From positions 1 to 47,760 of IMG/VR virus record IMGVR_UViG_3300021478_000045: a stretch of 47,760 bases of DNA. One strand, given 5' to 3'. Made by a program: the position numbers and the translations under genes. Positions within the stretch are counted from its first letter, which is position 1. The number at the start of each line of letters is the position of its first letter. The notes under the pieces were generated by a model, which saw nothing but the letters and a program-made list of their open reading frames with translations, did no database searches and was not told where the DNA came from. Positions 2,217-39,935 of the stretch are shown here, in pieces. Source of the stretch: a virus.

Positions 2217-2853
2217 TCCAATCCATAACATTGATCCTGGTCCCACGGTGATGTGGGAAGAAGATTATGAGCGCCTCAAGAAACAGCAGAAGCTGGATGC
2301 TGAGATTGAGCGCCAACGTAAAGCTAAACAAGACGCTATTGATCGTGAATTGTACAAAGAAAATCAGAAGATTAAGGATCAAATAGATTACACTGAAGAG
2401 TTGGCGACAGAGATTTGTGAGAGGATCAGTGCTGGTGAGCTATTGATCAACATTTGTAAAGACTCACACATGCCAACTGTGCGCCGCTGTTCAGCATGGC
2501 TGAAGACAGAAGCTGATTTCCAAGCGCTGTATAATATGGCTATTGCTGACAGACTGACTATATTTGAAGAAGAAGTGATATCAATTGCTGATGATGCAGC
2601 ACGTGATATGAAAGAAATTATTAAATCTGGTAAAACTATTAAAGTGCAAGATGCTGATGTGATTGCTCGTGCCAAATTGAGAGTTGAGGTGCGCTTCAGG
2701 CATCTCAAAGCTGGGCGACCTGGTAAATGGGGTGACAGCACTACACTCATCACTAAGTCAGAAGATGAGAATATTGCTGATATGCCACTGCCTGAGTTGG
2801 AAAAGAAGATTGCTGAACTTGAACTCAAAGATCGAGTGGTTAAGGCAGTCTAA
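2209..2853 (+). CDS. Terminase small subunit (Sf6 gp1-like)
   Basis: A 214-residue protein. A charged coiled-coil N-terminus (residues 15-60) precedes a helix-turn-helix-like block (residues 62-110, TEELATEICERISAGE then MPTVRRCSAWLK) and a helical core with DVIARAKLRVEVR and AGRPGKWGD. This layout matches terminase small subunits of the Sf6 type, which recognise the packaging site and load the large subunit. The gene overlaps 1929-2216 by 8 nt. No large subunit follows; the next gene is a helicase cassette flanked by inverted repeats. The N-terminus shares VMWEEDY and a following charged helix with the C-terminus of the primase at 18701-19939. Confidence 0.75.
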   Translation: MTDPIHNIDPGPTVMWEEDYERLKKQQKLDAEIERQRKAKQDAIDRELYKENQKIKDQIDYTEELATEICERISAGELLINICKDSHMPTVRRCSAWLKTEADFQALYNMAIADRLTIFEEEVISIADDAARDMKEIIKSGKTIKVQDADVIARAKLRVEVRFRHLKAGRPGKWGDSTTLITKSEDENIADMPLPELEKKIAELELKDRVVKAV

Positions 2854-2893
2854 TTCCATCATTCAATGATTGATCCATGATACTCAAAGCATG

Positions 2894-2917
2894 GTGTCTG
2901 CCTGTCTAGCTGTCTAG
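2894..2917. repeat. Left cluster of three 8-bp repeats (iteron-like)
   Basis: GTGTCTGC, CTGTCTAG and CTGTCTAG lie in tandem. The 15-bp segment TGTCTAGCTGTCTAG at 2903-2917 is the exact reverse complement of 4686-4700, on the other side of the helicase gene. Two such clusters in opposite orientation could be ends of a mobile cassette or binding sites of a replication or repressor protein. Confidence 0.7.
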
Positions 2918-2946
2918 GTCGAAACTTGCTTTTGTCGCGAAAATGC

Positions 2947-2971
2947 GAAGGGTTTCCGGCGGGAACCCTTT
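2947..2971 (+). terminator. Intrinsic terminator after the terminase small-subunit gene
   Basis: Stem AAGGGTTTCC/GGGAACCCTT with a 3-nt loop (GGC), followed directly by TTTT. It sits between the terminase gene and the promoter of the second helicase, and insulates the two. Confidence 0.65.
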
Positions 2972-3039
2972 TCATGAATTTTCATCAATGATTGATATTC
3001 ATAGCATTCAGAACTCATTTTCTCAAAAAAAGAAAGCCC

Positions 3040-3068
3040 TTGTGGTGGTTTCGGAAATGTGTTATAAT
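3040..3068 (+). promoter_or_regulatory. Strong sigma70-type promoter of the second helicase
   Basis: -35 TTGTGG (3040-3045), 17-bp spacer, perfect -10 TATAAT (3063-3068). The predicted start near 3075 gives a leader of about 110 nt before ATG 3188. Unlike most promoters here it lacks TGC before the -10, in line with a separate origin for this cassette. Confidence 0.7.
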
Positions 3069-3144
3069 AGAGGCATCGATTGGGAGAGAGACCCGGCCGA
3101 GGCGCTGTTTGACATTGTGAATAAGCAGAATACAAGGACCCATC

Positions 3145-3177
3145 ATGGAAAGAAGCCCTCTGGGCGCAACAAAATGA
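3145..3177 (+). CDS. Possible 10-residue upstream peptide (MERSPLGATK)
   Basis: ATG 3145 has an AAGGA ribosome binding site 6 nt upstream and stops at TGA 3177, 10 nt before the helicase start. The stop overlaps the GAGGA ribosome binding site of the helicase gene, so its translation could deliver ribosomes to that start. This is a small open frame with good signals only; whether it is translated is unknown. Confidence 0.3.
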   Translation: MERSPLGATK

Positions 3178-3187
3178 GGATAGTATA

Positions 3188-4660
3188 ATGGACAAAGAAA
3201 TAGAGAAAATGGGTAGACTCATAAAGTTTACCCGGCAACCAGAGATCTTCTTCCAGAAGAATGGTTGGGGAGTAGCAGAAGATGAGGTAGTGCGTAATAT
3301 GAATACGTTCTATGCTCATGTTCTAGTAAGTGAGAGTGAGCAGGCTAGAATACTGCACATAAAAGAAGATGGCTCAAAGAGCTGGATGAAGAAATCGGAT
3401 TTTATGTCTCAGCACGCGAATATGACAATCCTTGTCGAAGATGACAAGGGCAAAGAAAAGCGTGTGAATGTCGGAAAACTCTGGTTTCTATCTCGAATGA
3501 GGCGCTTCTATAATAAAGTGGTATTCAAGATAGTAAAGCCTCAAGAGGAACCTCTCCCAGATTGGATCTATAATCTGTGGGAAGGATATGATATCCAGCC
3601 GGTTGCTGGTAATGTTCAACCTTTCTTAGATTTTATGAGAGAGGTAATCTGTTCTGGGAACGACGAACACTTCACGTACTTGGTTGCGCTTCTGGCGCAA
3701 ATGTTCCAGGAGCCAGAGGATAGACCTGGAGTTGCAGTTGTTCTTAGAGGTGAAGAAGGTGTTGGCAAGTCTTTCTTTGTTGAGAAGATTTGCGAACTGA
3801 TAAAGAGCTACTACTTCAAATCCTCTAATCTGCATCATATTTTCGGATCGTTTAACTCTCAGTTGCGGAATAAGTTGATTCTGCATATTGAGGAAGCTAG
3901 ATGGTCTGGGAATAGCAGAGACGAACAGATGTTGAAAGATCTCATAACGGGCGAGAAAATATCCGTGAATGAGAAGCATGTGCCTGTGATGTTGATGCAA
4001 AACTATTTGCATGTGTTCATTACAGGTAATCCGAAGTGGTTAGTATCCGCCTCATTTAGCGCGCGTCGCGTTTATGCGCTGTATGTGAGTTCAACGCATC
4101 GCAAGGATACTGAGTATTTCGGGAAGCTGAACGAAGAGTACGAGAATGGTATGAATACAGCACTCTTGCACTACTTCCTAAATTATGACTATAGCTCGGT
4201 GGACTTGAGAAGGATACCCGTAACTGAAGAGCTACTGCATCAGAAGCAACAAAGTATGTCTGGTGTAGAGGAATGGTGGCTCAATAACTTAACAACGGGT
4301 GAGCTTCCTCAAGGTATTCTCGATGGTGAGAATTGCAGAGTTCTCAAGGAACTTCTTTATATTGACTTCTGCAAGTCTCGATGGGTGCGCGACAGGACGA
4401 AATTGAACGAGACCGCTTTTGGAAAAGCATTCGTTCAGTTAATACCGCAGGTAATAGATGGTAAAGTCCAAAAGCACAGTAATGGCTCCAGAGTTACTAT
4501 TGTGCGAGATGGTAGAGCGCCTGTCACAAAGACGGGAGTGAGGCCATACGTGTATATAATCCCGTCGTTGAGAGTGTGTCGCGAGCTAATGGATGTTCTT
4601 CTGGAAGGAAAGAACACTTGGGATCCAGAGCAGGTTAACTGGATCTTCAGGACTAGATAA
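3188..4660 (+). CDS. Second D5/P4-like SF3 helicase (paralogue of 1-1417)
   Basis: A 490-residue protein. Walker A GEEGVGKS is at residues 188-195, followed by LILHIEEARW (Walker B region), VFITGNPKW (sensor) and SARRVYAL (arginine finger). The C-terminal block EELLHQKQQSMSGVEEW is shared almost word for word with the minus-strand helicase at 1-1417. The N-terminal 140 residues diverge, so partner or primase contacts may differ. It has its own TATAAT promoter and leader, a terminator before it and inverted repeat clusters on both sides. Known relatives are ring helicases of phages, satellites and plasmids. Possible explanations are an acquired satellite-like replication cassette, a duplication that gained a new control region, or a regulator that antagonises the first copy. 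Confidence 0.85.
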   Translation: MDKEIEKMGRLIKFTRQPEIFFQKNGWGVAEDEVVRNMNTFYAHVLVSESEQARILHIKEDGSKSWMKKSDFMSQHANMTILVEDDKGKEKRVNVGKLWFLSRMRRFYNKVVFKIVKPQEEPLPDWIYNLWEGYDIQPVAGNVQPFLDFMREVICSGNDEHFTYLVALLAQMFQEPEDRPGVAVVLRGEEGVGKSFFVEKICELIKSYYFKSSNLHHIFGSFNSQLRNKLILHIEEARWSGNSRDEQMLKDLITGEKISVNEKHVPVMLMQNYLHVFITGNPKWLVSASFSARRVYALYVSSTHRKDTEYFGKLNEEYENGMNTALLHYFLNYDYSSVDLRRIPVTEELLHQKQQSMSGVEEWWLNNLTTGELPQGILDGENCRVLKELLYIDFCKSRWVRDRTKLNETAFGKAFVQLIPQVIDGKVQKHSNGSRVTIVRDGRAPVTKTGVRPYVYIIPSLRVCRELMDVLLEGKNTWDPEQVNWIFRTR

Positions 4661-4685
4661 AACGCGATAAAAAACGAAAACGCCG

Positions 4686-4709
4686 CTAGACAGCTAGACA
4701 CCTAGACAG
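4686..4709. repeat. Right cluster of three 8-bp repeats, inverted to the left one
   Basis: CTAGACAG, CTAGACAC and CTAGACAG lie in tandem just after the helicase stop. Bases 4686-4700 are the exact reverse complement of 2903-2917. Both clusters have three units of the same length. Confidence 0.7.
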
Positions 4710-4846
4710 TGGGGCTCATCAAGCCCTGCTGGAGCGCTCCAGTGCGAGTGCCCCTGAACTATTCATCAATCAATGGTTGAAATGTGGATGACATCAACTT
4801 TTGAAAGTACTGATATATCAGCAAAATCATGGTATTTTCCCTTTTT
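4710..4846. other. Non-coding stretch with hairpin and 14-bp palindrome
   Basis: No convincing gene is seen. GGGCT-CATCA-AGCCC (4712-4726) forms a short hairpin. CTGGAGCGCTCCAG (4729-4742) is a perfect palindrome, which could be a dimer-binding site. The rest is AT-rich. A 42-codon frame in this area has no ribosome binding site. Confidence 0.4.
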
Positions 4847-4904
4847 GTTCCCGTACTGTTCCCGATACGTTCCCCTTGCTTTCCTGCCCGGAACGTGCTA
4901 GGGT
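4847..4904 (+). promoter_or_regulatory. Promoter with three phased GTTCCC operators
   Basis: GTTCCCG at 4847-4853 and 4858-4864 and GTTCCCC at 4869-4875 are spaced exactly 11 bp apart, one helical turn. They run into -35 TTGCTT (4876-4881), a 17-bp spacer ending in TGC, and a weak -10 TAGGGT (4899-4904). ACGTTCC (4867-4873) is matched by its reverse complement GGAACGT in the spacer (4890-4896). A weak promoter with phased sites suggests activation or repression of the small-gene array downstream. Confidence 0.55.
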
Positions 4905-4912
4905 TTTTTCTC

Positions 4913-5177
4913 GGGGCGGTTCCCGCCCCTTAAAGGAGTTGATTTCATCCATTTTCCCCGCGGAGAAAACCGCGGCGCAGGCCACAAAGCCGAATAGCGA
5001 AATAAACCCGGCAAAATGACGAGCCGAGCGGTTAAGTAGTTGGTGCCAGGCAGTCTCTCCCCGAAGGGCGAAAAGTTCCAGGGAGAAAAACCGGCCAGTT
5101 GCGTCGTTTAGGCGGAAGGAAATATCCGCCTGAGATAGCAAAACAGAGCACAGTGCCCTGAAAAGGGTGCTGTGCTC
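4913..5177 (+). ncRNA. Structured GC-rich leader (or small RNA) of about 265 nt
   Basis: A run of hairpins: GGGGCGG/CCGCCCC (4913-4929), CCGCGG/CCGCGG (4958-4975), AGGCGGA/TCCGCCT (5110-5131) and a 13-bp stem with two wobble pairs at 5146-5177 (GAGCACAG against CTGTGCTC). It starts near the predicted start of the promoter at 4876-4904 and ends 14 nt before the ribosome binding site of 5205-5618. It is much richer in G and C than its surroundings. It could be a regulatory 5' leader, a separate RNA or a replication or packaging site. No known RNA class is recognised. Confidence 0.5.
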
Positions 5178-5204
5178 AATTGTGCTATTTCTAACTAGGA
5201 GAGT

Positions 5205-5618
5205 ATGATGTCATCGAAAGCACGCGCAAGACTAAGGCAAATGAAAGCAAATCCTATAGATGCTGGAAGATCAGGGCATACGAATATGAATATCACCCCT
5301 GTTCGTAAGACGTTTATAGTTGATTTCAGCAAATTAAAAGATCCAGGCGAAAAGCCTAGTGAGGAATTGGAAATAGATCAGGATTACAGTGTAATCAAGA
5401 AAAGAGTTAAAACATTTGCGTCAGGCAAGATCGAAATCAAATATGTTAAGAACAATCCTCCTGGAAAGCGGTACTTTCCGCGATCTGAGAGCAAAATAGC
5501 AAAGGGTGATTCCATCGGAGATTACGGTTCTGTCACAGGAACAACTTTTGCTGATTATCAGAGCCGAATCAAGGCTCGGAAGAAAGAAGCTGAGGAAGCT
5601 TCTTGGCGTAAGAAGTAG
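5205..5618 (+). CDS. Small basic protein, first gene of the array
   Basis: A 137-residue lysine- and arginine-rich protein. The start (tandem ATGATG) follows CTAGGAGAG, a good ribosome binding site. Both termini are strongly basic (KARARLRQMK and KARKKEAEEASWRKK), with a more mixed centre. No family is recognised; nucleic-acid binding is plausible from charge alone. It is first in a long plus-strand array of tiny genes behind a structured leader. Confidence 0.65.
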   Translation: MMSSKARARLRQMKANPIDAGRSGHTNMNITPVRKTFIVDFSKLKDPGEKPSEELEIDQDYSVIKKRVKTFASGKIEIKYVKNNPPGKRYFPRSESKIAKGDSIGDYGSVTGTTFADYQSRIKARKKEAEEASWRKK

Positions 5619-5794: not shown

Positions 5795-6130
5795 ATGAGT
5801 AGACTAGAAAAATCTCTCGATGATTTCACAGAAATAATGAAGGAACTATCCGGCTTGATAAAGGAGGTAAAATTGGACAATTCAGTCCTGTATAACGAAG
5901 ATATTCATCACAATCTCCTTGCTGAAGGATATTCGTATGAAGGAAGGAATTCTGAATTCAGCGAATCATACGACGAATACGAGCATCCTGACTGCGACGA
6001 TTGGCTTGCCATCTATTCGGATGGGCGCGTCGAGTTCTTGGATATCTGCGAATACACTGAAGGCTCAGTTACAGGTCGAGCAGTCAAAGAGCAGTGGATT
6101 AATCGCAGAAACAGAGTTTTGGAGCACTAA
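5795..6130 (+). CDS. 111-residue acidic protein
   Basis: ATG 5795 follows AGGAGAAGTAAA. The product starts with a helical segment (MSRLEKSLDDFTEIMKELS) and then carries an acidic region with YDEYEHPDCDDW and VEFLDICEY. No family is recognised. Its TAA stop is immediately followed by the first hammerhead ribozyme, so its mRNA is predicted to end at base 6163. Confidence 0.6.
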   Translation: MSRLEKSLDDFTEIMKELSGLIKEVKLDNSVLYNEDIHHNLLAEGYSYEGRNSEFSESYDEYEHPDCDDWLAIYSDGRVEFLDICEYTEGSVTGRAVKEQWINRRNRVLEH

Positions 6131-6191
6131 GACCGAAACTGGTGCGCCACAAGCCCACCAGTCCTAGCGTTGGGCGCTAGCTGACGAGGTC
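6131..6191 (+). ncRNA. Type II hammerhead ribozyme 1
   Basis: Stem II GACC (6131-6134) pairs with GGTC (6188-6191). GAAA core at 6135-6138. Stem III ACTGGTG/CACCAGT closes a loop and ends in GTC, with predicted cleavage after C6163. Stem I CTAGCG/CGCTAG has a 5-nt loop. The CTGACGA core is at 6181-6187. All invariant hammerhead core positions are present. GACC/GGTC replaces the GATC/GATC of other copies, a compensatory change. Confidence 0.9.
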
Positions 6192-6211
6192 AGTAACCAG
6201 GAGTTGTTAAA

Positions 6212-6559
6212 ATGGCAAAGATTAGAGTTAGACGCGGTTCTGAAGGTCCAAAGCACGATCCGTATTCATTTACGGAGATTACATTCTACTTTACTGATAC
6301 AACGCGTAATCCAGTCACAATCCATAGCGGATTAGGCGAATGGGTTAAAACTGGCGATAGACATTACGATGCTCAAAACTCTTGTGGAATAGATCCGGCT
6401 CTGATATTTGAAGAATTAACTGGACTTTCAGTTCGCAGAGCTGAAGCGATTCCAAATATGCTGTTTGAGCGCTCCATGCGTAAGTATTCCAGAGCGGAGC
6501 GTGAGAGCATTATGGAGTGCATCGAGGCTGACGAAGCAATGCTCAGAAATTGCTACTGA
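6212..6559 (+). CDS. 115-residue protein of unknown function
   Basis: ATG 6212 follows CAGGAGTTGTTAAA. The N-terminus MAKIRVRRGSEGPKHDPYSF is basic and the middle is beta-rich (ITFYFTDTTRNPVTIHSG). It ends in a helical region (SRAERESIMECIEADEAM). No family is recognised. It is predicted to be a single-gene mRNA, released by ribozymes 1 and 2. Confidence 0.6.
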   Translation: MAKIRVRRGSEGPKHDPYSFTEITFYFTDTTRNPVTIHSGLGEWVKTGDRHYDAQNSCGIDPALIFEELTGLSVRRAEAIPNMLFERSMRKYSRAERESIMECIEADEAMLRNCY

Positions 6560-6560
6560 A

Positions 6561-6623
6561 GATCGAAATTGGAGCGCCCACAAAGCGTTCCAATCGCAAC
6601 GTAAGGCGTTGCCTGATGAGATC
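6561..6623 (+). ncRNA. Type II hammerhead ribozyme 2
   Basis: Stem II GATC (6561-6564) pairs with GATC (6620-6623). GAAA 6565-6568. Stem III ATTGGAGCG/CGTTCCAAT ends in ATC, with cleavage after C6595. Stem I GCAACG/CGTTGC has loop TAAGG. CTGATGA at 6613-6619. The usual C-G pair next to the core is replaced by T6569-A6593, a compensatory double change. Confidence 0.9.
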
Positions 6624-6642
6624 AGTAACTAGGAGTTGTAGA

Positions 6643-6933
6643 ATGGCAAAATATCTGGTTATCAATAGCGCACCTGACGGACGTCATCTTTCACTTTATC
6701 CTACACTTGAGAAGGCTCGCGAGAGAGTTCTCAGCATGGTAGGCGGAGTTGAGAGAGAATTCGCCGTTGGTATTTCATATTATTCCGATTGGGGTAATCG
6801 CCTCACCATAGAGACACGTCCAGATAATTGGACTCTTCGTATGGAAGAGTCAGTGGGCGCTGCTTTCGATGCTCGTGAGTGCGGAACAGCTACCAAACAT
6901 CAACTTAACCTGCTCGATTTAATGGGTTATTAA
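6643..6933 (+). CDS. 96-residue protein of unknown function
   Basis: Start chosen at ATG 6643 after TAGGAGTTGTAGA; any earlier start would lie inside ribozyme 2. The N-terminus resembles the 6212 product only in MAKxxV. Features are PDGRHLSLYPTLEKARERVL and a C-terminal KHQLNLLDLMGY. No family is recognised. Its TAA is directly followed by ribozyme 3. Confidence 0.6.
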   Translation: MAKYLVINSAPDGRHLSLYPTLEKARERVLSMVGGVEREFAVGISYYSDWGNRLTIETRPDNWTLRMEESVGAAFDARECGTATKHQLNLLDLMGY

Positions 6934-6996
6934 GACCGAAACTGGAGCGCCCAAAAGGCTCTCCAGTCACGCTGTAATGCAGCGTCTGACGAGGTC
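6934..6996 (+). ncRNA. Type II hammerhead ribozyme 3
   Basis: Stem II GACC (6934-6937) pairs with GGTC (6993-6996). GAAA 6938-6941. Stem III ACTGGAG/CTCCAGT has an inner GCC/GGC pair set and ends in GTC; cleavage after C6968. Stem I ACGCTG/CAGCGT has loop TAATG. CTGACGA 6986-6992. It shares the GACC/GGTC stem II with ribozyme 1. Confidence 0.9.
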
Positions 6997-7021
6997 AGCA
7001 ACAAACAGCCAGGTGATAAAA

Positions 7022-7183
7022 ATGTTAATGGAAATAGAAGGAAGTAGGGCTAATCTGATAGCTGAGGCTGTCAAAGCCATTCTTGAAATCTCAGAAGAGA
7101 AACTCAAGGAACTGTGTGCTACCATTGAGAAGATGGTAGATGCTGCCTATGTTGAAGGCAAAGAAGATGGGCAGTGGAGTTAA
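7022..7183 (+). CDS. 53-residue helical protein
   Basis: Start chosen at ATG 7022 after AGGTGATAAAA; an upstream in-frame ATG lies inside ribozyme 3. The product is almost entirely helical and acidic (EISEEKLKELCATIEKMVDAA). No family is recognised. It is paired with the next gene (10-nt gap) between ribozymes 3 and 4. Confidence 0.55.
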   Translation: MLMEIEGSRANLIAEAVKAILEISEEKLKELCATIEKMVDAAYVEGKEDGQWS

Positions 7184-7193
7184 GGAGGTAGCA

Positions 7194-7433
7194 ATGGAAA
7201 AGGTTACTATTGAGTTTGAAATAGCCCAAGCACAGGAGGTGGCTTCCACAATTAGAACAACAGTCAAAAAAATAGACTTTGTTTTGGATAATCCTCCGCC
7301 GAAGATGAAGCCAGGACAATTATCTGATCTCGATGTGCGAGCAAAGATATTGACAGTAGCTGCTCAAACCATCGAAGATAAGCTTCACGCAAGAGCATTG
7401 GCAAACGTAGTGAAGATTGCTGATAAAAAATAA
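7194..7433 (+). CDS. 79-residue protein of unknown function
   Basis: ATG 7194 follows the near-perfect ribosome binding site AAGGAGGTAGCA. The sequence alternates helix and loop (MEKVTIEFEIAQAQEVAST, then DNPPPKMKPGQLSDLD). No family is recognised. Ribozyme 4 starts 1 nt after its TAA. Confidence 0.6.
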   Translation: MEKVTIEFEIAQAQEVASTIRTTVKKIDFVLDNPPPKMKPGQLSDLDVRAKILTVAAQTIEDKLHARALANVVKIADKK

Positions 7434-7434
7434 A

Positions 7435-7494
7435 GATCGAAACTGGCCGCAGTGATGCGCCCAGTCGCAGCGTAAGGCGCTGCCTGAGGAGATC
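7435..7494 (+). ncRNA. Type II hammerhead ribozyme 4, core doubles as ribosome binding site
   Basis: Stem II GATC (7435-7438) pairs with GATC (7491-7494). GAAA 7439-7442. Stem III ACTGG/CCAGT with inner CGCA/TGCG and a GTGA tetraloop ends in GTC; cleavage after C7466. Stem I GCAGCG/CGCTGC has loop TAAGG. The core is CTGAGGA (7484-7490), G at the free position. The next ATG is at 7498, so GAGGAGA inside the core and stem II is the only Shine-Dalgarno candidate for the following gene. Confidence 0.9.
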
Positions 7495-7497
7495 AAA

Positions 7498-7755
7498 ATG
7501 TCATTTGTAAAACGCGATGCTGAAGCAGTAAAGGTGGTAGTTCAAATCTCTACCATCTACGAGAATGGTACAGCGCCATTCGTACAAGGTGACGAGGTAG
7601 TTCGCCAATTTACAGTTGAGGCTACCAGTGGCGACTATAGTGTTACCCAACTTGCAATGGCAATCCAAATGCAGGTTGAGAAAGGTATTGGCGTAGTTGC
7701 TGATACACAATCTTGGCCGCTCACCCCAGAGCAAGACAACCCAAACTGTTCGTAA
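7498..7755 (+). CDS. 85-residue protein translated from the ribozyme 4 boundary
   Basis: ATG 7498 lies only 3 nt after ribozyme 4, and its ribosome binding site GAGGAGA is part of the ribozyme core. The product (MSFVKRDAEAVKVVVQIST, later SVTQLAMAIQMQVEKGIG) appears beta-rich and then helical. No family is recognised. It is paired with the next gene, 12 nt downstream. Confidence 0.6.
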   Translation: MSFVKRDAEAVKVVVQISTIYENGTAPFVQGDEVVRQFTVEATSGDYSVTQLAMAIQMQVEKGIGVVADTQSWPLTPEQDNPNCS

Positions 7756-7766
7756 GGATAACAGAG

Positions 7767-8102
7767 ATGATAAGGTTAGTATCTGAGCAAGATCCGTTTG
7801 ATTGCTACTTAGCAATTGGCAAGAAAAACGGAATAACAAAATCATATTGGTCAATATCAGCAGATAATGATTTTATAAATATGAGTTTTAATCACCCTTA
7901 TGTTGGCGCTACTGAAGTTTCGTATCCTGCTGATATGCAGTGGGGTAAGGCATCTTCAGTTAAGATTGAAGGTCCAACTTGGCTTGATCTGTGGAAAGCA
8001 GCAGATAAAGCCATACAGGAAAGTGGCGATGAGCACCACGTTTTCATAGAAGATTTCTATGAATTAGAGAATGGTGTTCTTCAACTTCATACTGGCAGTT
8101 AA
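7767..8102 (+). CDS. 111-residue protein of unknown function
   Basis: Start chosen at ATG 7767 after AAGGATAACAGAG. Aromatic-rich, with two WxxxW-like clusters (MQWGKASSVKIEGPTWLDLWKA) and an acidic C-terminus (ESGDEHHVFIEDFYELENG). No family is recognised. Its TAA is directly followed by ribozyme 5. Confidence 0.6.
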   Translation: MIRLVSEQDPFDCYLAIGKKNGITKSYWSISADNDFINMSFNHPYVGATEVSYPADMQWGKASSVKIEGPTWLDLWKAADKAIQESGDEHHVFIEDFYELENGVLQLHTGS

Positions 8103-8167
8103 GATCGAAACTATGTGGCGCCACTAAGCGCCCATAGTCGCAGGGTTTCTCCCTGCCTGATGAGATC
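8103..8167 (+). ncRNA. Type II hammerhead ribozyme 5
   Basis: Stem II GATC (8103-8106) pairs with GATC (8164-8167). GAAA 8107-8110. Stem III ACTATG/CATAGT with inner GGCGC/GCGCC ends in GTC; cleavage after C8139. Stem I GCAGGG/CCCTGC has loop TTTCT. CTGATGA 8157-8163. Confidence 0.9.
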
Positions 8168-8183
8168 AGTAATAGGAGGTAGC

Positions 8184-8405
8184 ATGACAAAAGTTGATAA
8201 AATGTCTACTTTTGAAGACGGTACTGTCACTACTGTTGAGAGGCCAAAGACAAGGGCCGAAAAGATCTCTCAGTGGAAGAGAGACAATCATGCAGCCTAC
8301 AAGCGTGCTTGTGATGATTCACATTGCACATGCACTCCAACTCGTGCTCAAATGCTCATTATCCAGCAGTACGAGGGCAATGGTCCAGACTATCTTAATC
8401 AGTAA
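8184..8405 (+). CDS. 73-residue protein with HCTCT cysteine motif
   Basis: ATG 8184 follows AATAGGAGGTAGC. The sequence MTKVDKMSTFEDGTVTTVE is followed by a basic helix (KTRAEKISQWKRDNHAAYKRA) and DDSHCTCTPTRAQ. Two Cys and one His are too few for a clear zinc site. No family is recognised. It is followed by an intrinsic-type hairpin instead of a ribozyme. Confidence 0.55.
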   Translation: MTKVDKMSTFEDGTVTTVERPKTRAEKISQWKRDNHAAYKRACDDSHCTCTPTRAQMLIIQQYEGNGPDYLNQ

Positions 8406-8417
8406 GTAATTGAACTT

Positions 8418-8444
8418 TGGGGCGCAGCAGTGCGCCCCACTTTT
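8418..8444 (+). terminator. Intrinsic-type hairpin, boundary cassette B1
   Basis: TGGGGCGC/GCGCCCCA with a 6-nt loop, then CTTTT. It is embedded in AATTGAACTTT...ACTTTTAGG, a wording shared with 8763-8795. A small GGTC-ATTTAA-GACC hairpin follows before the next ribosome binding site. Confidence 0.6.
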
Positions 8445-8477
8445 AGGTCATTTAAGACCGCTAACCAGGAGAGTAAA

Positions 8478-8765
8478 ATGTCAAATAGCATAAATGAAAT
8501 AAAAGTAGGCGGAAAGGTTGATCCCAAAAAGGGAGCAAAAATCCAAAATATCTGTAATAAGATGAGAAGGATTATTGGCGGACAGCCTTCTGATGTTATA
8601 TTTGAGGCATTAGCTATTGTATGTGCCACAAATATAAAAGAATATATGGAAATGGCAATAGCAGATAATGTTTCAATAACAGAAATTGAAGTTTATAATC
8701 TATTTATTGACCATATAAAAAATCGTTTGGAATCATTAGTTTTTATTCCTGACCAAACAAATTGA
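8478..8765 (+). CDS. 95-residue helical protein
   Basis: ATG 8478 follows AACCAGGAGAGTAAA. The sequence is helical throughout, with IFEALAIVCATNIKEYMEMA and YNLFIDHIKNRLESL. No family is recognised. It lies between two terminator-like hairpins, so it may be expressed as its own unit. Confidence 0.55.
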   Translation: MSNSINEIKVGGKVDPKKGAKIQNICNKMRRIIGGQPSDVIFEALAIVCATNIKEYMEMAIADNVSITEIEVYNLFIDHIKNRLESLVFIPDQTN

Positions 8766-8769
8766 ACTT

Positions 8770-8791
8770 TGGGGGCTTTGCCCCCACTTTT
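8770..8791 (+). terminator. Intrinsic-type hairpin, boundary cassette B2
   Basis: TGGGGGC/GCCCCCA with a TTT loop, then CTTTT. The flanks AATTGAACTTT and ACTTTTAGG match cassette B1. A short GGCA-ATTT-TGCC hairpin follows at 8793-8804. Confidence 0.65.
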
Positions 8792-8821
8792 AGGCAATTT
8801 TGCCAACTAAGGATGTGTATA

Positions 8822-9121
8822 ATGACAAAGAGCGACCCATGGATTCTCTGCCCAGTTTGCGATGGGGAGGGAACGACAGTCAATCCAAATATAGATTGTA
8901 ATGGATTGACTCGCGAGGACTTCGATGAAGATCCAGACTTCGCTGAAGACTACAGGAATGGCACATATGATATCACATGTGCCGCTTGTTCTGGAAAGCG
9001 TGTGTTGAAAGCAGCGCGCCTCGAAGAATTGGCGCAACATGCTGAAGATCGCCGCCTCGCTGCTCGTGAGAACGGCGATTTTGAAAGCTATTGTGGCGCA
9101 GGCGATTGGAGATTCGGATGA
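8822..9121 (+). CDS. DnaJ-type zinc-finger protein, 99 residues
   Basis: Start chosen at ATG 8822. CPVCDGEG (residues 10-17) and CAACSGK (residues 53-59) match the CxxCxGxG repeat of the DnaJ cysteine-rich domain, here as a single two-half zinc site. An acidic linker and a basic helical tail follow (KAARLEELAQHAEDRRLAAR). DnaJ-like zinc fingers bind unfolded proteins or act as redox or zinc scaffolds; no J domain is present. The stop overlaps the next start (ATGA). Confidence 0.65.
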   Translation: MTKSDPWILCPVCDGEGTTVNPNIDCNGLTREDFDEDPDFAEDYRNGTYDITCAACSGKRVLKAARLEELAQHAEDRRLAARENGDFESYCGAGDWRFG

Positions 9122-9342
9122 GTGCATCTGACGTTTGGGTATATTCCAGAGGAAACAAGCTCATTCGTCGCGAAGAAAATGACGGATGGACTTATCTAAA
9201 CCGTGGGCCAGAAGCCAATGAACAAGAAATCATTGGTATTGGCGGTTTTTACCAGGTAATCGTAGTTGGCGGCAAAAAGTTGCCAATTCAATATTGCGGT
9301 GACTGGGAAACAATCGTTGCCCATTTTACTAAGGAGTCATAG
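9118..9342 (+). CDS. 74-residue protein of unknown function
   Basis: Start ATG 9118 overlaps the previous stop by 4 nt (ATGA), indicating coupled translation. The product is beta-rich (SDVWVYSRGNKLIRR, GIGGFYQVIVVGGKKLP). No family is recognised. Confidence 0.55.
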   Translation: MSASDVWVYSRGNKLIRREENDGWTYLNRGPEANEQEIIGIGGFYQVIVVGGKKLPIQYCGDWETIVAHFTKES

Positions 9343-9343
9343 A

Positions 9344-9592
9344 ATGAAACTTAATCAGCAAAAAGAAAACAGAAAGAAGTATCCATTCATCGTTGCATGG
9401 GGATACCGTCTTGGTTCTTTCCAGTATTATATCGACGGTGAAATTGAAAGAGCCATCGAGGACGGTGCTCCTGAACGTGCCATTTACAAAAGCGGTAGCG
9501 GTGAGTGGCGCACCATAGATGATTGTTCTAACCTCAATGCAAAGGAGGAATGTGAAGTTTGGGTTGCCAAGAATTTCCCCAAAACAAGATAG
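9344..9592 (+). CDS. 82-residue protein of unknown function
   Basis: Start chosen at ATG 9344 after AAGGAGTCATAGA. Features are a basic start (KLNQQKENRKKYPF), an aromatic core (WGYRLGSFQYYIDG) and ECEVWVAKNFPKTR at the end. No family is recognised. It is part of a tight run of genes from 8822 to 10017. Confidence 0.55.
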   Translation: MKLNQQKENRKKYPFIVAWGYRLGSFQYYIDGEIERAIEDGAPERAIYKSGSGEWRTIDDCSNLNAKEECEVWVAKNFPKTR

Positions 9593-9599
9593 GTGCCTA

Positions 9600-9827
9600 A
9601 TGATACAAGAGCAAGCTGAATTTGAGTTATGGAAGTCCAGAGTAGAAGTCTATTTGGAGCAAATGGTAAAGAAATCTACTGATGATTTTCGATACAACTA
9701 TTTGCAGGACTTCAATAATAATGTTCCACCCAGCATAACGGCCACGCGTGTGGTGCGTACTGGTTATCGTCAAGGAGGTAGCAATGGTATATCAAGTAAA
9801 ACGAAACGGCCACAAACTTCTCGATGA
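9600..9827 (+). CDS. 75-residue protein overlapping the SWIM gene
   Basis: ATG 9600 lies 7 nt after the previous stop. The N-terminal half is helical (MIQEQAEFELWKSRVEVYLEQ) and the C-terminal tail is basic. It overlaps the next gene by 44 nt, which is long for this array. The true end or the start of the neighbour could be questioned, but both have plausible sequence. No family is recognised. Confidence 0.4.
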   Translation: MIQEQAEFELWKSRVEVYLEQMVKKSTDDFRYNYLQDFNNNVPPSITATRVVRTGYRQGGSNGISSKTKRPQTSR

Positions 9828-10017
9828 ATATCGAGGTGATCGCGTTTATGGCGATTGCTACTGTATTCTTAAAGATGGAAAGGAAACTTATGAAGTTGTT
9901 CTTTCTACCATAGGTGACAGTTGTAATTGCCCAGGATTTACCAATCACGGTAAATGCAAACATCTTAATATGCCATATGAATATGCACCATGCATTGAAG
10001 GGCAAGAAATATATTGA
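9784..10017 (+). CDS. SWIM-type zinc-finger protein, 77 residues
   Basis: ATG 9784 follows CAAGGAGGTAGCA, a strong ribosome binding site. The protein contains CNCPGFTNHGKCKHL, the CxCx(n)CxH signature of SWIM zinc fingers, which bind DNA or proteins. The N-terminus is beta-rich (DCYCILKDGKETYEVVL), as in known SWIM modules. A second, shorter SWIM protein lies at 17544-17753. Ribozyme 6 begins directly after its TGA. Confidence 0.75.
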   Translation: MVYQVKRNGHKLLDEYRGDRVYGDCYCILKDGKETYEVVLSTIGDSCNCPGFTNHGKCKHLNMPYEYAPCIEGQEIY

Positions 10018-10074
10018 GATCGAAACGGCCAGTGCGATTGGCCGTCGTTGCGTGTGGCGCAACCTGATGAGATC
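10018..10074 (+). ncRNA. Type II hammerhead ribozyme 6
   Basis: Stem II GATC (10018-10021) pairs with GATC (10071-10074). GAAA 10022-10025. Stem III ACGGCCA/TGGCCGT with a 7-nt loop ends in GTC; cleavage after C10046. Stem I GTTGCG/CGCAAC has loop TGTGG. CTGATGA 10064-10070. This is the shortest of the seven copies. Confidence 0.9.
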
Positions 10075-10092
10075 AAAATAGGAAATTGTAAA

Positions 10093-10962
10093 ATGATACA
10101 AGAACTTATAAAATATGAGGCCGCTTGTAGAGCGGTTGCTGAAGCGTACAGAGTTGACGAAATTAAGGATATTCGTGATAAGCACATTGCCATTCAGGAA
10201 TATGCTAGAGTTTCAAAAAACTTCGTAATGGAAAAGCAAGCATTGGAAATAAGGATGCGTGCTGAAAGAAAGGGAGGTGAGTTGTTAATACAGTTGAAGG
10301 AAGAAGGGAAAAGACACCAAAAAGAAGAAAACAGAAAGGTTGTTGAAAAACCGAAAGTGGCCGAAATAGTTGCGGAAATTCCGAAGTCGCCGGACGCGAC
10401 TTCGCAAAATCCGCAACCGACACCGCCAATTTCTGTAATTCCGAAACTAGCTGATTTAGGAGTTGATAAATATTTGTCTGCTCAAATGCAAAAATTGGCA
10501 AAAATGCCGGAAGAAAAATTTGAGGAACATATTGGAATTCAAAAGGATAAAATTGATCAAAAACAAGTCAAGGAAGAAGCCAAAGTAGAAATCATAAAAG
10601 AGCGCGAAGCTAATCGTGCTGAGAAAGAAAGACTCAAACAAGAAAGAATAGAGTTCAATAAGAGAGTAGATGAGTCAGACTTAGATCCATTCCTTAAGAA
10701 GGAATTGAAGAGTGAAGCATCAGTAAAACATATTGTTCCATTTACTGTTGATTTTGCTCGTCATTTGGAAAGAGATAAAGAAAAATTAGATCAAATAATG
10801 CTAAATTCTGACAATCTAAATATTTATTCACGTCACAAATTAGCACAGGTTCTGAGAACATTGGGAGCACATTTTATTGAATGTGCAGAAAAACTCAAGG
10901 AGAAAGAGCACACTCCTGATTTTGATAATATGAGGCTCGCAAATCCAGATAATCTAAACTAG
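10093..10962 (+). CDS. 289-residue coiled-coil phage protein
   Basis: Start chosen at ATG 10093 after ATAGGAAATTGTAAA; earlier starts lie inside ribozyme 6. Residues 1-75 (AACRAVAEAYRVDEIKDIRD..., ALEIRMRAERKGGELL) match a helical module common in phage and prophage proteins of unknown role. A proline-rich linker (about residues 85-120) leads to long charged helices (KEEAKVEIIKEREANRAEKERL). A C-terminal helical region ends at PDNLN. It may be a scaffold or DNA-associated regulator, but this is inference. Confidence 0.6.
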   Translation: MIQELIKYEAACRAVAEAYRVDEIKDIRDKHIAIQEYARVSKNFVMEKQALEIRMRAERKGGELLIQLKEEGKRHQKEENRKVVEKPKVAEIVAEIPKSPDATSQNPQPTPPISVIPKLADLGVDKYLSAQMQKLAKMPEEKFEEHIGIQKDKIDQKQVKEEAKVEIIKEREANRAEKERLKQERIEFNKRVDESDLDPFLKKELKSEASVKHIVPFTVDFARHLERDKEKLDQIMLNSDNLNIYSRHKLAQVLRTLGAHFIECAEKLKEKEHTPDFDNMRLANPDNLN

Positions 10963-10980
10963 GTTCAGAAAGGTAGCAAA

Positions 10981-11568
10981 ATGAACGCAAGTAATGAAAT
11001 GCGAAAATGGCTTGAGAGACTCGGCAAAATCGCATATGTTATGCATCAAAATGGTAACAATTGGCCAAATGCAAAGGATATAGCCAGAGAACTTGACAAA
11101 ATACCAGGTCAAAAATATTACTCTTATGATGGATTAGAGATTAGTAGTCTTCAATACGTTCTCCATCGCTTACCGGATGTTCCATCTACCATACATAGAA
11201 TGTATGGTATTAGACCGATATCAATTAACGCAATTTTTTATATTAATGGTTGTATTAAGCCCAAATCTATAGATCAAGCCAAGAGATTTCTCACAAGTTC
11301 AGGACATCCAATATACGGAATTTATTTTCATATCGGAGAACGTGATCTTATTTATCAAGCACATTATTTACGTAATGTGGATAAAGCTAACAGGCTTAAT
11401 GATAGAAATCTTGAGTTCCTTGTAACTCATACAGAAGCTAACGTCTTTTCTGACGAAGATGCTTTGCAAGCATTGGCTGCTTCGGATGAAGAAGCAGATA
11501 GAATCAAGTTGCGTAATGACAGACTACGCACCATTATACAGAGTGGCGGCAGAAAGCTACTGAAATAA
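10981..11568 (+). CDS. 195-residue protein of unknown function
   Basis: ATG 10981 lies 18 nt after the previous stop, with AAAGGTAGCAAA before it. The N-terminal 70 residues look like a winged-helix or HTH fold (NWPNAKDIARELDKIPGQK, then SSLQYVLHRL). The middle is beta-rich (ISINAIFYINGCIKP) and the C-terminus acidic then basic. No family is recognised. Ribozyme 7 starts 1 nt after its TAA. Confidence 0.55.
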   Translation: MNASNEMRKWLERLGKIAYVMHQNGNNWPNAKDIARELDKIPGQKYYSYDGLEISSLQYVLHRLPDVPSTIHRMYGIRPISINAIFYINGCIKPKSIDQAKRFLTSSGHPIYGIYFHIGERDLIYQAHYLRNVDKANRLNDRNLEFLVTHTEANVFSDEDALQALAASDEEADRIKLRNDRLRTIIQSGGRKLLK

Positions 11569-11569
11569 A

Positions 11570-11634
11570 GATCGAAACTTGGGGCGCCACAAAGGCGTTC
11601 CAAGTCGTGCTGTTAGGCAGCACCTGATGAGATC
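11570..11634 (+). ncRNA. Type II hammerhead ribozyme 7
   Basis: Stem II GATC (11570-11573) pairs with GATC (11631-11634). GAAA 11574-11577. A 12-bp stem III (ACTTGGGGCGCC with GGCGTTCCAAGT, two G-U wobbles) has loop ACAAA and ends in GTC; cleavage after C11606. Stem I GTGCTG/CAGCAC has loop TTAGG. CTGATGA 11624-11630. Confidence 0.9.
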
Positions 11635-11658: not shown

Positions 11659-11796
11659 ATGGGTGACCCAGAAGAGCATACCAAAGCTGAAGAGCCGGTA
11701 GTAGAAGCTCCAAAAGAAGCAGAAGCTCCTCCAAAAGAAGCAGAAGCTGAACCGGTTCCGCCAAAAGGGACGGAAGATCAACCAGAAGTTGCGTAG
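11659..11796 (+). CDS. 45-residue Glu/Pro/Ala-repeat peptide
   Basis: Read from ATG 11659 after AAGGAGGGACTCGT to TAG 11796. The product is very acidic and repetitive, with two copies of PKEAEA plus related EEPVVEAP and EAEPVPPKG units, so it is likely disordered. No family is recognised. Such acidic tails can mimic nucleic acid or act as spacers, but nothing here shows that. It stands alone between ribozyme 7 and a terminator. Confidence 0.55.
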   Translation: MGDPEEHTKAEEPVVEAPKEAEAPPKEAEAEPVPPKGTEDQPEVA

Positions 11797-12235: not shown

Positions 12236-12280
12236 CACCTGGTCGGGTTGTTCGCCCCCCGGACCATCGCGGGCCAGGTG
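12236..12280 (+). ncRNA. Hairpin element upstream of terminator
   Basis: CACCTGG (12236-12242) pairs with CCAGGTG (12274-12280), enclosing a smaller TGGTC/GACCA hairpin. CCTGG/CCAGG words recur in the adjacent terminator stem, so alternative pairing between the two is possible, in the manner of an attenuator. No known class is recognised. Confidence 0.35.
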
Positions 12281-12287
12281 TAGACTT

Positions 12288-12325
12288 GCCGCCAGGATTT
12301 GTAATGAGTACCTGGCGGCCCTTTT
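12288..12325 (+). terminator. Intrinsic terminator, boundary cassette B3
   Basis: GCCGCCAGG/CCTGGCGGC (9 bp, 14-nt loop) followed by CCTTTTAGG. A GGC-AATTTA-GCC hairpin follows, as in cassettes B1 and B2, just before the next ribosome binding site. Confidence 0.65.
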
Positions 12326-12359
12326 AGGCAATTTAGCCCCAACTAGGATTTAAAATGTC

Positions 12360-13382
12360 ATGTACCTCATGGATCACATAACAGAAACAGTTCATGAAGC
12401 TAAGAGAAGAAGGCTTCTTAGCCATCCTGTCATAAGTATCTTCCCAATATTGGAAGAAAAATTGAAAGGATGTCCTCGCTTCCTGTTTGACGACGCAACT
12501 ATCCACACAGCAGTGGAACTTACTCTGGGGCGCCCCAAGGTGCTTCGAGAAGCCATGGCTCATCTTAGAATACCATATACTAAGATGTGGATAGAATGGC
12601 CAGAAGCGGGACGAGAGAAATTGAGAACAACATTCTCAATAGATGCTTATGAGTATCCTAATCGTCCATTACCAACTCGTTTGGGTTTTCTACTAGAGAC
12701 AGATGAGTTTGGTAGAAAAGGAATGGTTACTTGGGTATGGAGTAATCATTTTATCAAGAAGGGCGAGCCACCAAACGTTGGTCCAATATCTGCTTTCTTC
12801 GACCTAGATTTTGATTACAGTAAAATCACAAGTCCAAGTTTTGTTAAGAGTTTTTTGGATGCTAATTTAGCTAATATCTGGAAAGATAATAAAATCCAAC
12901 TAGACGCGCTCCTTAGCATTTGGGATACATCATACCATAAACCATCTGAATGGGGAGCAAAGTTTTTGGAGCTACCTCCTCATTATCGGCTTAGGCTTAA
13001 TGGAAATAGCCAAGATGCTCAAATAGCCAACTTCTATGCAGATGTGTATGGCGAATATATTATGATATGGTCGTGTCTAATGTTACTGACATCTTCCAGA
13101 AAAATTGTAGAGTTGGAGCATGTCGATATGTCTCCACTCAATAGAATACGCAGAAGAATGAATAAAGCTCAGAGATTAGACCATACCATAGTTACCATGC
13201 ATATTAGCCAAGAAACTCGTATGCATCAACAAGGTATGCCGCTTGGATATACTCGAAAGAGTCCACGCATACATATGGTAGGCTCATATCTCAACAGACG
13301 CGGCGATAAACATTGGATCGTGCAGCCTTTCTGGCGCGGCTCAGGAGAGGTTATCAGTCGCCACGTACACGTTAAACCATAG
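12360..13382 (+). CDS. 340-residue conserved phage-type protein
   Basis: ATG 12360 is used; an out-of-frame ATG at 12355 is better spaced to TAGGA but opens only an 8-codon frame. The N-terminus is helical (EAKRRRLLSHPVISIFPILEEKL). A middle domain contains WEWPEAG-like and GFLLETDEFGRKGM segments. The C-terminus has RKSPRIHMVGSYLNRRGDKH and IVQPFWRGSGEVISRH, a basic, aromatic ending seen in uncharacterised phage and prophage proteins. No enzyme motif is visible. It is one of the two largest products in the small-gene array. Confidence 0.6.
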   Translation: MYLMDHITETVHEAKRRRLLSHPVISIFPILEEKLKGCPRFLFDDATIHTAVELTLGRPKVLREAMAHLRIPYTKMWIEWPEAGREKLRTTFSIDAYEYPNRPLPTRLGFLLETDEFGRKGMVTWVWSNHFIKKGEPPNVGPISAFFDLDFDYSKITSPSFVKSFLDANLANIWKDNKIQLDALLSIWDTSYHKPSEWGAKFLELPPHYRLRLNGNSQDAQIANFYADVYGEYIMIWSCLMLLTSSRKIVELEHVDMSPLNRIRRRMNKAQRLDHTIVTMHISQETRMHQQGMPLGYTRKSPRIHMVGSYLNRRGDKHWIVQPFWRGSGEVISRHVHVKP

Positions 13383-39021: not shown

Positions 39022-39935
39022 TGATACCTCATGATGATAGGGATCGCTATATATGGTGGCATATTATTATGCGGGCTACCAGAACCTGCATTTGCCATTG
39101 TTATACCAGTTCCTGCTGCAACATTTACCATACTAGTTACTGCTGCAACATTTGCCATACCAGTTCCTGCTGCAACATTTACCATACCTGTACCAACAGC
39201 ATAAATTCCTATACCAGTTCCTGCTGCGGCAACATTTATAGCACCTGGGAAACCCCACGGGGGACCGCCAGCAACATTCGATCCACCAGTTGGATTAAGA
39301 TATTGTTGCCCAGTACTATGTACGTGTCCTGGATCAGCAATACTATGTGCATGACCAGGATCAGTATGGCCGTGATTATGTCCAGGGTCGCTATGACCAT
39401 GATTATGTCCAGGATCTGTATGTCCATGATTATGTGTAGGATCAGTTAATGTATGTGCATGAACAGGCATTTCAGCCGTAGTTAAAGTATGATTTACTTC
39501 ACCTCCTGTTGCATTTAATGAGTATGCACCACCTGCACCAAGAATAAATTTTGCAACCATATTAGGAACAGCATTAGATGTTCCAGTAACTCCTCCATAT
39601 CTATTGCCTAATACAGGAGCCAATATAGGTATGGCTGTATTGAGATAAATTGTTCCATCACATAGCAACCAATTAGGAGGTGGTGTCATAGTACACCACA
39701 TCATCATACTACCAACTTTTATAATACTATCAACATATTGCTTTGTAGCCGCGCCCAATAATAGTGTTGGATCACCGGAAAGCACCAAAGGCCCTGTCAT
39801 AATACCGCCAGCAAGCGGTACATAGGTTCCTCCAGGTGCAGTAATCATTATCCATTTAGTGCCATCCCACTGCCAAGTAAGACCACCAGCTGTAAAAGTC
39901 TGGCCTACAGTAGGATTGTCTGGAAAATTAATCAT
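39018..39935 (-). CDS. Tail fibre with collar-like domain and His-rich repeats
   Basis: 305 residues. The N-terminus FPDNPTVGQTFTAGGLTWQW and GTKWIM is a known fibre-attachment word. KVGSMMMWCTMTPPPNWLLCDG is the start of a phage tail collar domain. A run of DPxHxHGH units (about residues 165-205) probably binds iron along the trimer axis, as in other fibres. VNVAAGTGM repeats follow, then PPYIAIPIIMRY closes the fold. It is one of several receptor-binding candidates. Confidence 0.75.
   Translation of the reverse strand: MINFPDNPTVGQTFTAGGLTWQWDGTKWIMITAPGGTYVPLAGGIMTGPLVLSGDPTLLLGAATKQYVDSIIKVGSMMMWCTMTPPPNWLLCDGTIYLNTAIPILAPVLGNRYGGVTGTSNAVPNMVAKFILGAGGAYSLNATGGEVNHTLTTAEMPVHAHTLTDPTHNHGHTDPGHNHGHSDPGHNHGHTDPGHAHSIADPGHVHSTGQQYLNPTGGSNVAGGPPWGFPGAINVAAAGTGIGIYAVGTGMVNVAAGTGMANVAAVTSMVNVAAGTGITMANAGSGSPHNNMPPYIAIPIIMRYQ

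Follow-up and report, generated by a model that had tools for sequence, protein, structure and literature searches.

A virus record of 47,760 bases (IMG/VR IMGVR_UViG_3300021478_000045, positions 1 to 47,760; hereafter the window) carries a row of seven complete type II hammerhead ribozymes, all on the + strand and confined to 5.5 kilobases (kb; 6131-11634), for which self-cleavage after nucleotide H17 is predicted. The record codes for a terminase small subunit, a primase-like protein, a DNA ligase, a DNA polymerase, a helicase, a thymidylate synthase and tail fibres. Judging from the arrangement of the elements in the sequence, it is likely that the seven hammerheads cut one long phage transcript into messenger RNAs (mRNAs) of a single gene or a few genes. 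The argument for this role is drawn from placement and precedent: sequence, structure, covariation, context, conservation and one cassette exchange are documented below, and we infer cleavage, docking and an effect on mRNA. Seven well-placed copies, together with relatives that have or lack a copy at the same boundary, make the mRNA-processing idea directly testable. The seven elements are the following:

6131-6191, + strand: hammerhead 1 (type II), cleavage predicted after C6163, stem II GACC/GGTC
6561-6623, + strand: hammerhead 2, cleavage predicted after C6595, stem II GATC/GATC
6934-6996, + strand: hammerhead 3, cleavage predicted after C6968, stem II GACC/GGTC
7435-7494, + strand: hammerhead 4, cleavage predicted after C7466, N7 is G, which places GAGGAG in the core
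8103-8167, + strand: hammerhead 5, cleavage predicted after C8139, counterpart before the homologous gene in the related records G001 and G003
10018-10074, + strand: hammerhead 6, cleavage predicted after C10046, top score
11570-11634, + strand: hammerhead 7, cleavage predicted after C11606, stem II GATC/GATC

The whole window was searched with a structural pattern composed of a 4-base-pair (bp) stem II, GAAA, stem III closed by an A-U pair, H17, the stem I hairpin, CTGANGA and the returning strand of stem II. This search found no hammerhead on the - strand of the window, and 100 Markov-shuffled windows gave a chance level of 0.02 hammerheads per window. The catalytic core (C3 U4 G5 A6 N7 G8 A9, G12 A13 A14, the A15.1-U16.1 pair and H17) is present in all seven elements, and in RNA folding the lowest-energy structure of each was the hammerhead three-way junction. 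The type II layout, with three helices, loops closing stems I and III and an open stem II, is seen in these folds and in covariation among relatives. A custom covariance model, built from 45 viral hammerheads including the window element at 10018, found exactly these seven and nothing else in the 47,760 bases, with E-values from 4e-13 to 4e-16. The original prediction, made from the sequence without database searches, had placed seven type II hammerheads at these positions; structural search, folds and covariance model agree with it, the cores are intact, and the seven cleavage sites that it named are exactly the H17 positions given above.

The outcome was different with the Rfam models, none of which matched the window at gathering score. 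Rfam Hammerhead_II (RF02276) matched the window solely at the 10018 element, with 25.3 bits against a cut-off of 37; matches at the cut-off were obtained in L255 and L307, both of which hold long-loop elements. L255 (record G009, 2303-5614, - strand) contains a row of eight hammerheads, and the majority of these combine a long loop with a 3-bp stem II; the Hammerhead_II cut-off is reached by four of the eight. With the window subtype below the Rfam gathering score, ribozymes in viral genomes are undercounted by standard annotation, and the hammerheads described here are well supported as a new or undercounted variant.

What sets the window elements apart from Hammerhead_II is a 4-bp stem II, a stem I loop of five nucleotides (nt) led by U, and an A before stem II. 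An A directly 5' of stem II (A-1) was present in 283 of 294 distinct viral hammerheads, and U came first in all 242 of the five-base stem I loops. In the short-loop group, which has 283 members and includes the window elements, A-1 was present in 279; pairing of loop I with the 3' tail into a pseudoknot of 4 bp or more occurred in 12, compared with 12.9 with swapped partners. Such a pseudoknot was found in all 11 long-loop elements (2.0 expected), only 4 of which have A-1; the split is measured, but its long-loop side comprises only these 11 cases. The pseudoknot was rejected for the window subtype, its frequency being that of chance. The window elements belong to a short-loop subtype in which the loop U probably docks to A-1, by analogy with type I and type III hammerheads. 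Given that Perreault et al. (2011, PMC3088659), whose consensus includes the loop I/3' tail pseudoknot, attribute it to a majority, not all, of type II hammerheads, a type II hammerhead that lacks it is not new in itself.

The 45 sequences of the custom model were picked because they fold, which makes covariation among them circular in part. Circularity is reduced in a test on pattern matches from viral contigs, picked by their core letters and a GATC stem II only, regardless of stems I and III. Of the 122 matches, 104 form both of these stems, each 4 bp or longer and directly abutting the U-H junction, compared with 2 of 122 after shuffling. For the 24 hammerheads of the window and G001-G004, aligned by fitting to the covariance model and hence with a bias toward pairing, 100% of the counted pairs are kept and 12 of the 17 pairs have changed on both sides; their covariation score of 0.68 compares with 0.21 for shuffled and at most 0.10 for slid controls. 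Between hammerhead 6 and its G001 counterpart, the differences in stem III are paired changes. Hammerhead 7 has counterparts in four relatives, each before the homologous downstream gene, and its GATC/GATC stem II is replaced by GACC/GGTC in those of G001 and G003.

These patterns bear on the idea that the elements are hammerhead-shaped hairpins, decayed or without activity, that persist as stabilizers of mRNA. Hairpins at mRNA ends stabilize transcripts generally, and the hammerhead that precedes the family F3 gene in G002 (L252:5592-5661) has one extra base between core and stem II and, judging by this insertion, may be weakened or inactive. Against this idea, the catalytic letters are intact in seven of seven window elements, A-1 is near-invariant and the loop U invariant in hundreds of viral copies, and compensatory changes occur in all three stems; we consider it extremely improbable.

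The array, whose genes the original prediction took to be early ones, is located among small orphan genes of the + strand, between the terminase small subunit/primase-like gene and the replication genes:

5795-6130, + strand: gene upstream of hammerhead 1, TAA stop flush with stem II
6212-6559, + strand: gene of no known family, flanked by hammerheads 1 and 2
6643-6933, + strand: gene of no known family, flanked by hammerheads 2 and 3, start codon set by the position of the Shine-Dalgarno sequence
7022-7183, + strand: small gene, first of two between hammerheads 3 and 4
7194-7433, + strand: second gene between hammerheads 3 and 4, relatives in G001-G004
7498-7755, + strand: first gene between hammerheads 4 and 5
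7767-8102, + strand: second gene between hammerheads 4 and 5, TAA stop flush with stem II
8184-10017, + strand: block of some seven small genes from hammerhead 5 to hammerhead 6, with two hairpins of a different type inside it
10093-11568, + strand: two genes between hammerheads 6 and 7
11659-11796, + strand: gene for a small acidic protein, family F3, hammerhead upstream in all five related phages

As had been proposed, the elements share one strand, lie at gene boundaries and are placed so as to cut a polycistronic transcript. The description of a row at gene boundaries is accurate for seven of them and otherwise incomplete, as successive cut sites are separated by 1, 1, 2, 2, about 7 and 2 genes, and other hairpins occupy 8406-8472 and 8766-8821. 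The preceding stop codon is flush with stem II at four window elements and one base short of it at three. In a wider set of elements, the stop of an open reading frame of at least 50 codons ends at -4 to +2 nt relative to stem II in 74% of cases, compared with 1-4% at shifted positions; among the 246 elements with a nearby stop, 131 have A-1 as part of the stop codon, and the next start codon is found at a median of 23 nt downstream of the element. A ribosome that terminates there would be expected to sit over the 5' half of stem II and in this way compete with folding.

The downstream side invites another explanation, namely that the main job of the active ribozymes is not to separate mRNAs but to build the leader of the following gene or, at hammerhead 4, to release a Shine-Dalgarno sequence that lies in the core. 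In hammerhead 4, the G at N7 completes a GAGGAG that runs from the core into the first base of stem II and lies just before the ATG at 7498. This is likely the Shine-Dalgarno sequence for that start codon, and cutting might also free the ribosome site. GAGGAG followed by an ATG 3-5 nt after stem II was found only here (7435) and in L042, which likewise has a G at N7, and a Shine-Dalgarno sequence in the core was rejected as a general mechanism; most elements have a separate one outside the ribozyme, which argues against core release as a general function. A leader role agrees with the constancy of the downstream neighbour: the F3 gene has an upstream hammerhead in five of five phages, beside four different upstream genes, and the F11 gene in three of three. 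The elements are, however, also tied to the upstream stop codon, and we judge it rather unlikely that leader formation is their main role.

Comparison with the relatives shows how the genes and ribozymes have been rearranged. The genes around the array in G001-G004 are in part common and in part replaced. One hammerhead of G001 is a chimera of two in G003, its left flank being identical to that of the first at 287 of 300 positions and its right flank to that of the second at 291 of 300, and the gene cassette that G003 carries between its two hammerheads is missing in G001. These alignments place the crossover in or beside the hammerhead, and its direction may be either loss or gain. A chimera with one cassette missing is what would be expected if the elements were mainly recombination seams for cassette swaps, with ribozyme activity secondary. 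A seam acting as DNA would, however, preserve sequence, and here the stems differ with pairing kept; a purely DNA role would also leave the stop-codon placement, the invariant core and the same-strand orientation unexplained, and it is improbable that the elements are mainly seams. If the hammerheads instead act by cutting mRNA, a gene together with its ribozyme would be a portable cassette, able to generate its own mRNA ends at any site of insertion. As a broader and tentative proposal, which we advance with somewhat more doubt than belief, diverse phages may arrange runs of small genes as ribozyme-bounded cassettes, each with a hammerhead of a distinct subtype, in which the docking A, usually in or near the upstream stop, would couple termination to cutting and swaps would spare the expression of neighbours.

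Some gene boundaries carry a second intergenic element. In it, a variable hairpin precedes the constant sequence CTTTTAGG, after which come two bases that vary and then ATTT; several of the copies start with ATTGAACTT. Its copies are:

8406-8472, window: second element
8766-8821, window: second element
about 12268-12356, window: second element
8560-8632, L251: second element
3562-3631, L252: second element
4575-4641, L252: second element
5368-5440, L256: second element

From its composition, the second element looks like a terminator plus extra conserved sequence. It had no Rfam match at gathering score, and outside the phage group it had one IMG/VR match (L371). Where F10 meets F16, an element of this second type stands in G002 in place of the hammerhead 2 of the window.

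Cutting of a long transcript would begin with co-transcriptional folding of each element, with stem II clamping both ends and the stem I loop docking on the A just before stem II. The C that separates stem III from stem I would be the last nucleotide of the upstream mRNA, which would then end about 30-38 nt past its stop codon, with the stem III hairpin and a 2',3'-cyclic phosphate. The downstream mRNA would carry a 5'-OH and the stem I hairpin at its start, some 30-55 nt ahead of its start codon. The cleavage chemistry that yields a 5'-OH and a cyclic phosphate is established for hammerheads generally. The original prediction added that such ends could stabilize the mRNAs and set their ratios. 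Cuts at all seven sites would produce internal fragments of 432, 373, 498, 673, 1907 and 1560 nt. Several points weigh against this scheme. One transcript across all seven sites is an assumption, and there may be internal promoters. Homologous boundaries in relatives sometimes have no hammerhead or have another element, and because they vary in this way a cut at any given boundary is not essential. In addition, 4 of 18 consensus hammerheads were inactive in vitro (Perreault et al. 2011, PMC3088659), so that not all seven need work.

Cleavage might also be followed by re-ligation into circular or spliced mRNAs, an idea raised by Perreault et al. (2011, PMC3088659), as hammerheads can ligate and successive ribozymes could join ends. 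Such products were looked for in that study and none were found. No RtcB or RNA_ligase (Pfam) gene was detected in 14 records that bear arrays or are related to those that do, most of them fragments; the search covered only these two families of RNA ligase, and a ligase of the host could take part. We regard re-ligation as highly improbable.

Arrays of 5-10 hammerheads occur in at least 11 virus records (G000, 7; G001, 5; G003, 6; G005, 10; G006, 8; G007, 6; G008, 5; G009, 7; G121, 7; G135, 5; G136, 7), which were reached via hammerhead searches and thus give no estimate of frequency; the remaining records searched mostly hold one to four each. Among cellular genomes (257 billion bases), there were 96 pattern matches, and the structural finder was positive at four loci only, one of them (L242) doubtful, a count that is a lower bound given the strictness of the finder. 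Two of the four loci (L224 and L227) share the 52-kb contig JALHNX010000012.1, in which the covariance model found four hammerheads. This contig, binned with a Pyrinomonadaceae metagenome-assembled genome, may be a phage or prophage. In L047 (IMG/VR record G012), a type P5 twister ribozyme (10002-10065, - strand; 49.2 bits in Rfam) was observed on the same strand as the hammerheads of that record and about 0.7 kb away, which makes a mixed ribozyme array. Elsewhere in the window, the gene at 12360 had no match among 50,697 phage records, the primase-like and DNA polymerase genes had phage matches only below 60% identity, and the tail fibre gene contains 27-base tandem repeats (39071-39232).

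Hammerheads had been thought, in the original prediction, to occur singly in phages, and a row of them cutting a polycistronic transcript to be undescribed. This does not hold, as Perreault et al. (2011, PMC3088659) reported both prophage hammerhead clusters that flank single genes and the proposal that long phage transcripts are thereby turned into short mRNAs. In that work, three tandem arrangements cleaved in vitro, and the Agrobacterium triple cleaved in Escherichia coli. Hammerhead and twister ribozymes have also been found near genes of Mu-like phages (PMC10085705), and what hammerheads do in bacteria and phages is still described as an open question (PMC6155905, PMC10085705). Our literature search, confined largely to openly accessible papers, returned no description of arrays of this size, of the short-loop subtype or of stop-codon placement. 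On the sequence evidence, what appears to be new are the arrays of 5-10, the short-loop subtype missed by Rfam, the attachment to stop codons and the cassette behaviour.

Among known systems, Rfam Hammerhead_II (RF02276) has the type II permutation, catalytic core and order of parts seen in the window elements, but it includes the loop I/3' tail pseudoknot, whereas the window elements lack it and score below the 37-bit cut-off. With type I and type III hammerheads, in which a non-Watson-Crick contact joins loop I and the end of stem II (PMC6155905), the window elements probably share a similar contact between U and A; stem II is open here, however, and the A would come from the single-stranded flank, often from a stop codon. 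The HHphage element of haloviruses HF1 and HF2 offers a parallel in placement, lying 13 nt upstream of the start of an early gene, with the mapped 5' end of a major transcript at most 3 nt from the hammerhead cut (discussed in PMC3088659); unlike the window array, it is a single element with a variant core. The prophage clusters of Perreault et al. (2011), such as the triple that flanks ardA in Agrobacterium tumefaciens, resemble the window in that several hammerheads in one run flank single genes or short blocks. Those clusters lie in prophages and have at most three elements where the text gives a number, whereas the hammerheads described here number seven in the window and up to ten in other records, are found almost entirely in viral contigs and belong nearly all to the pseudoknot-free type II subtype.

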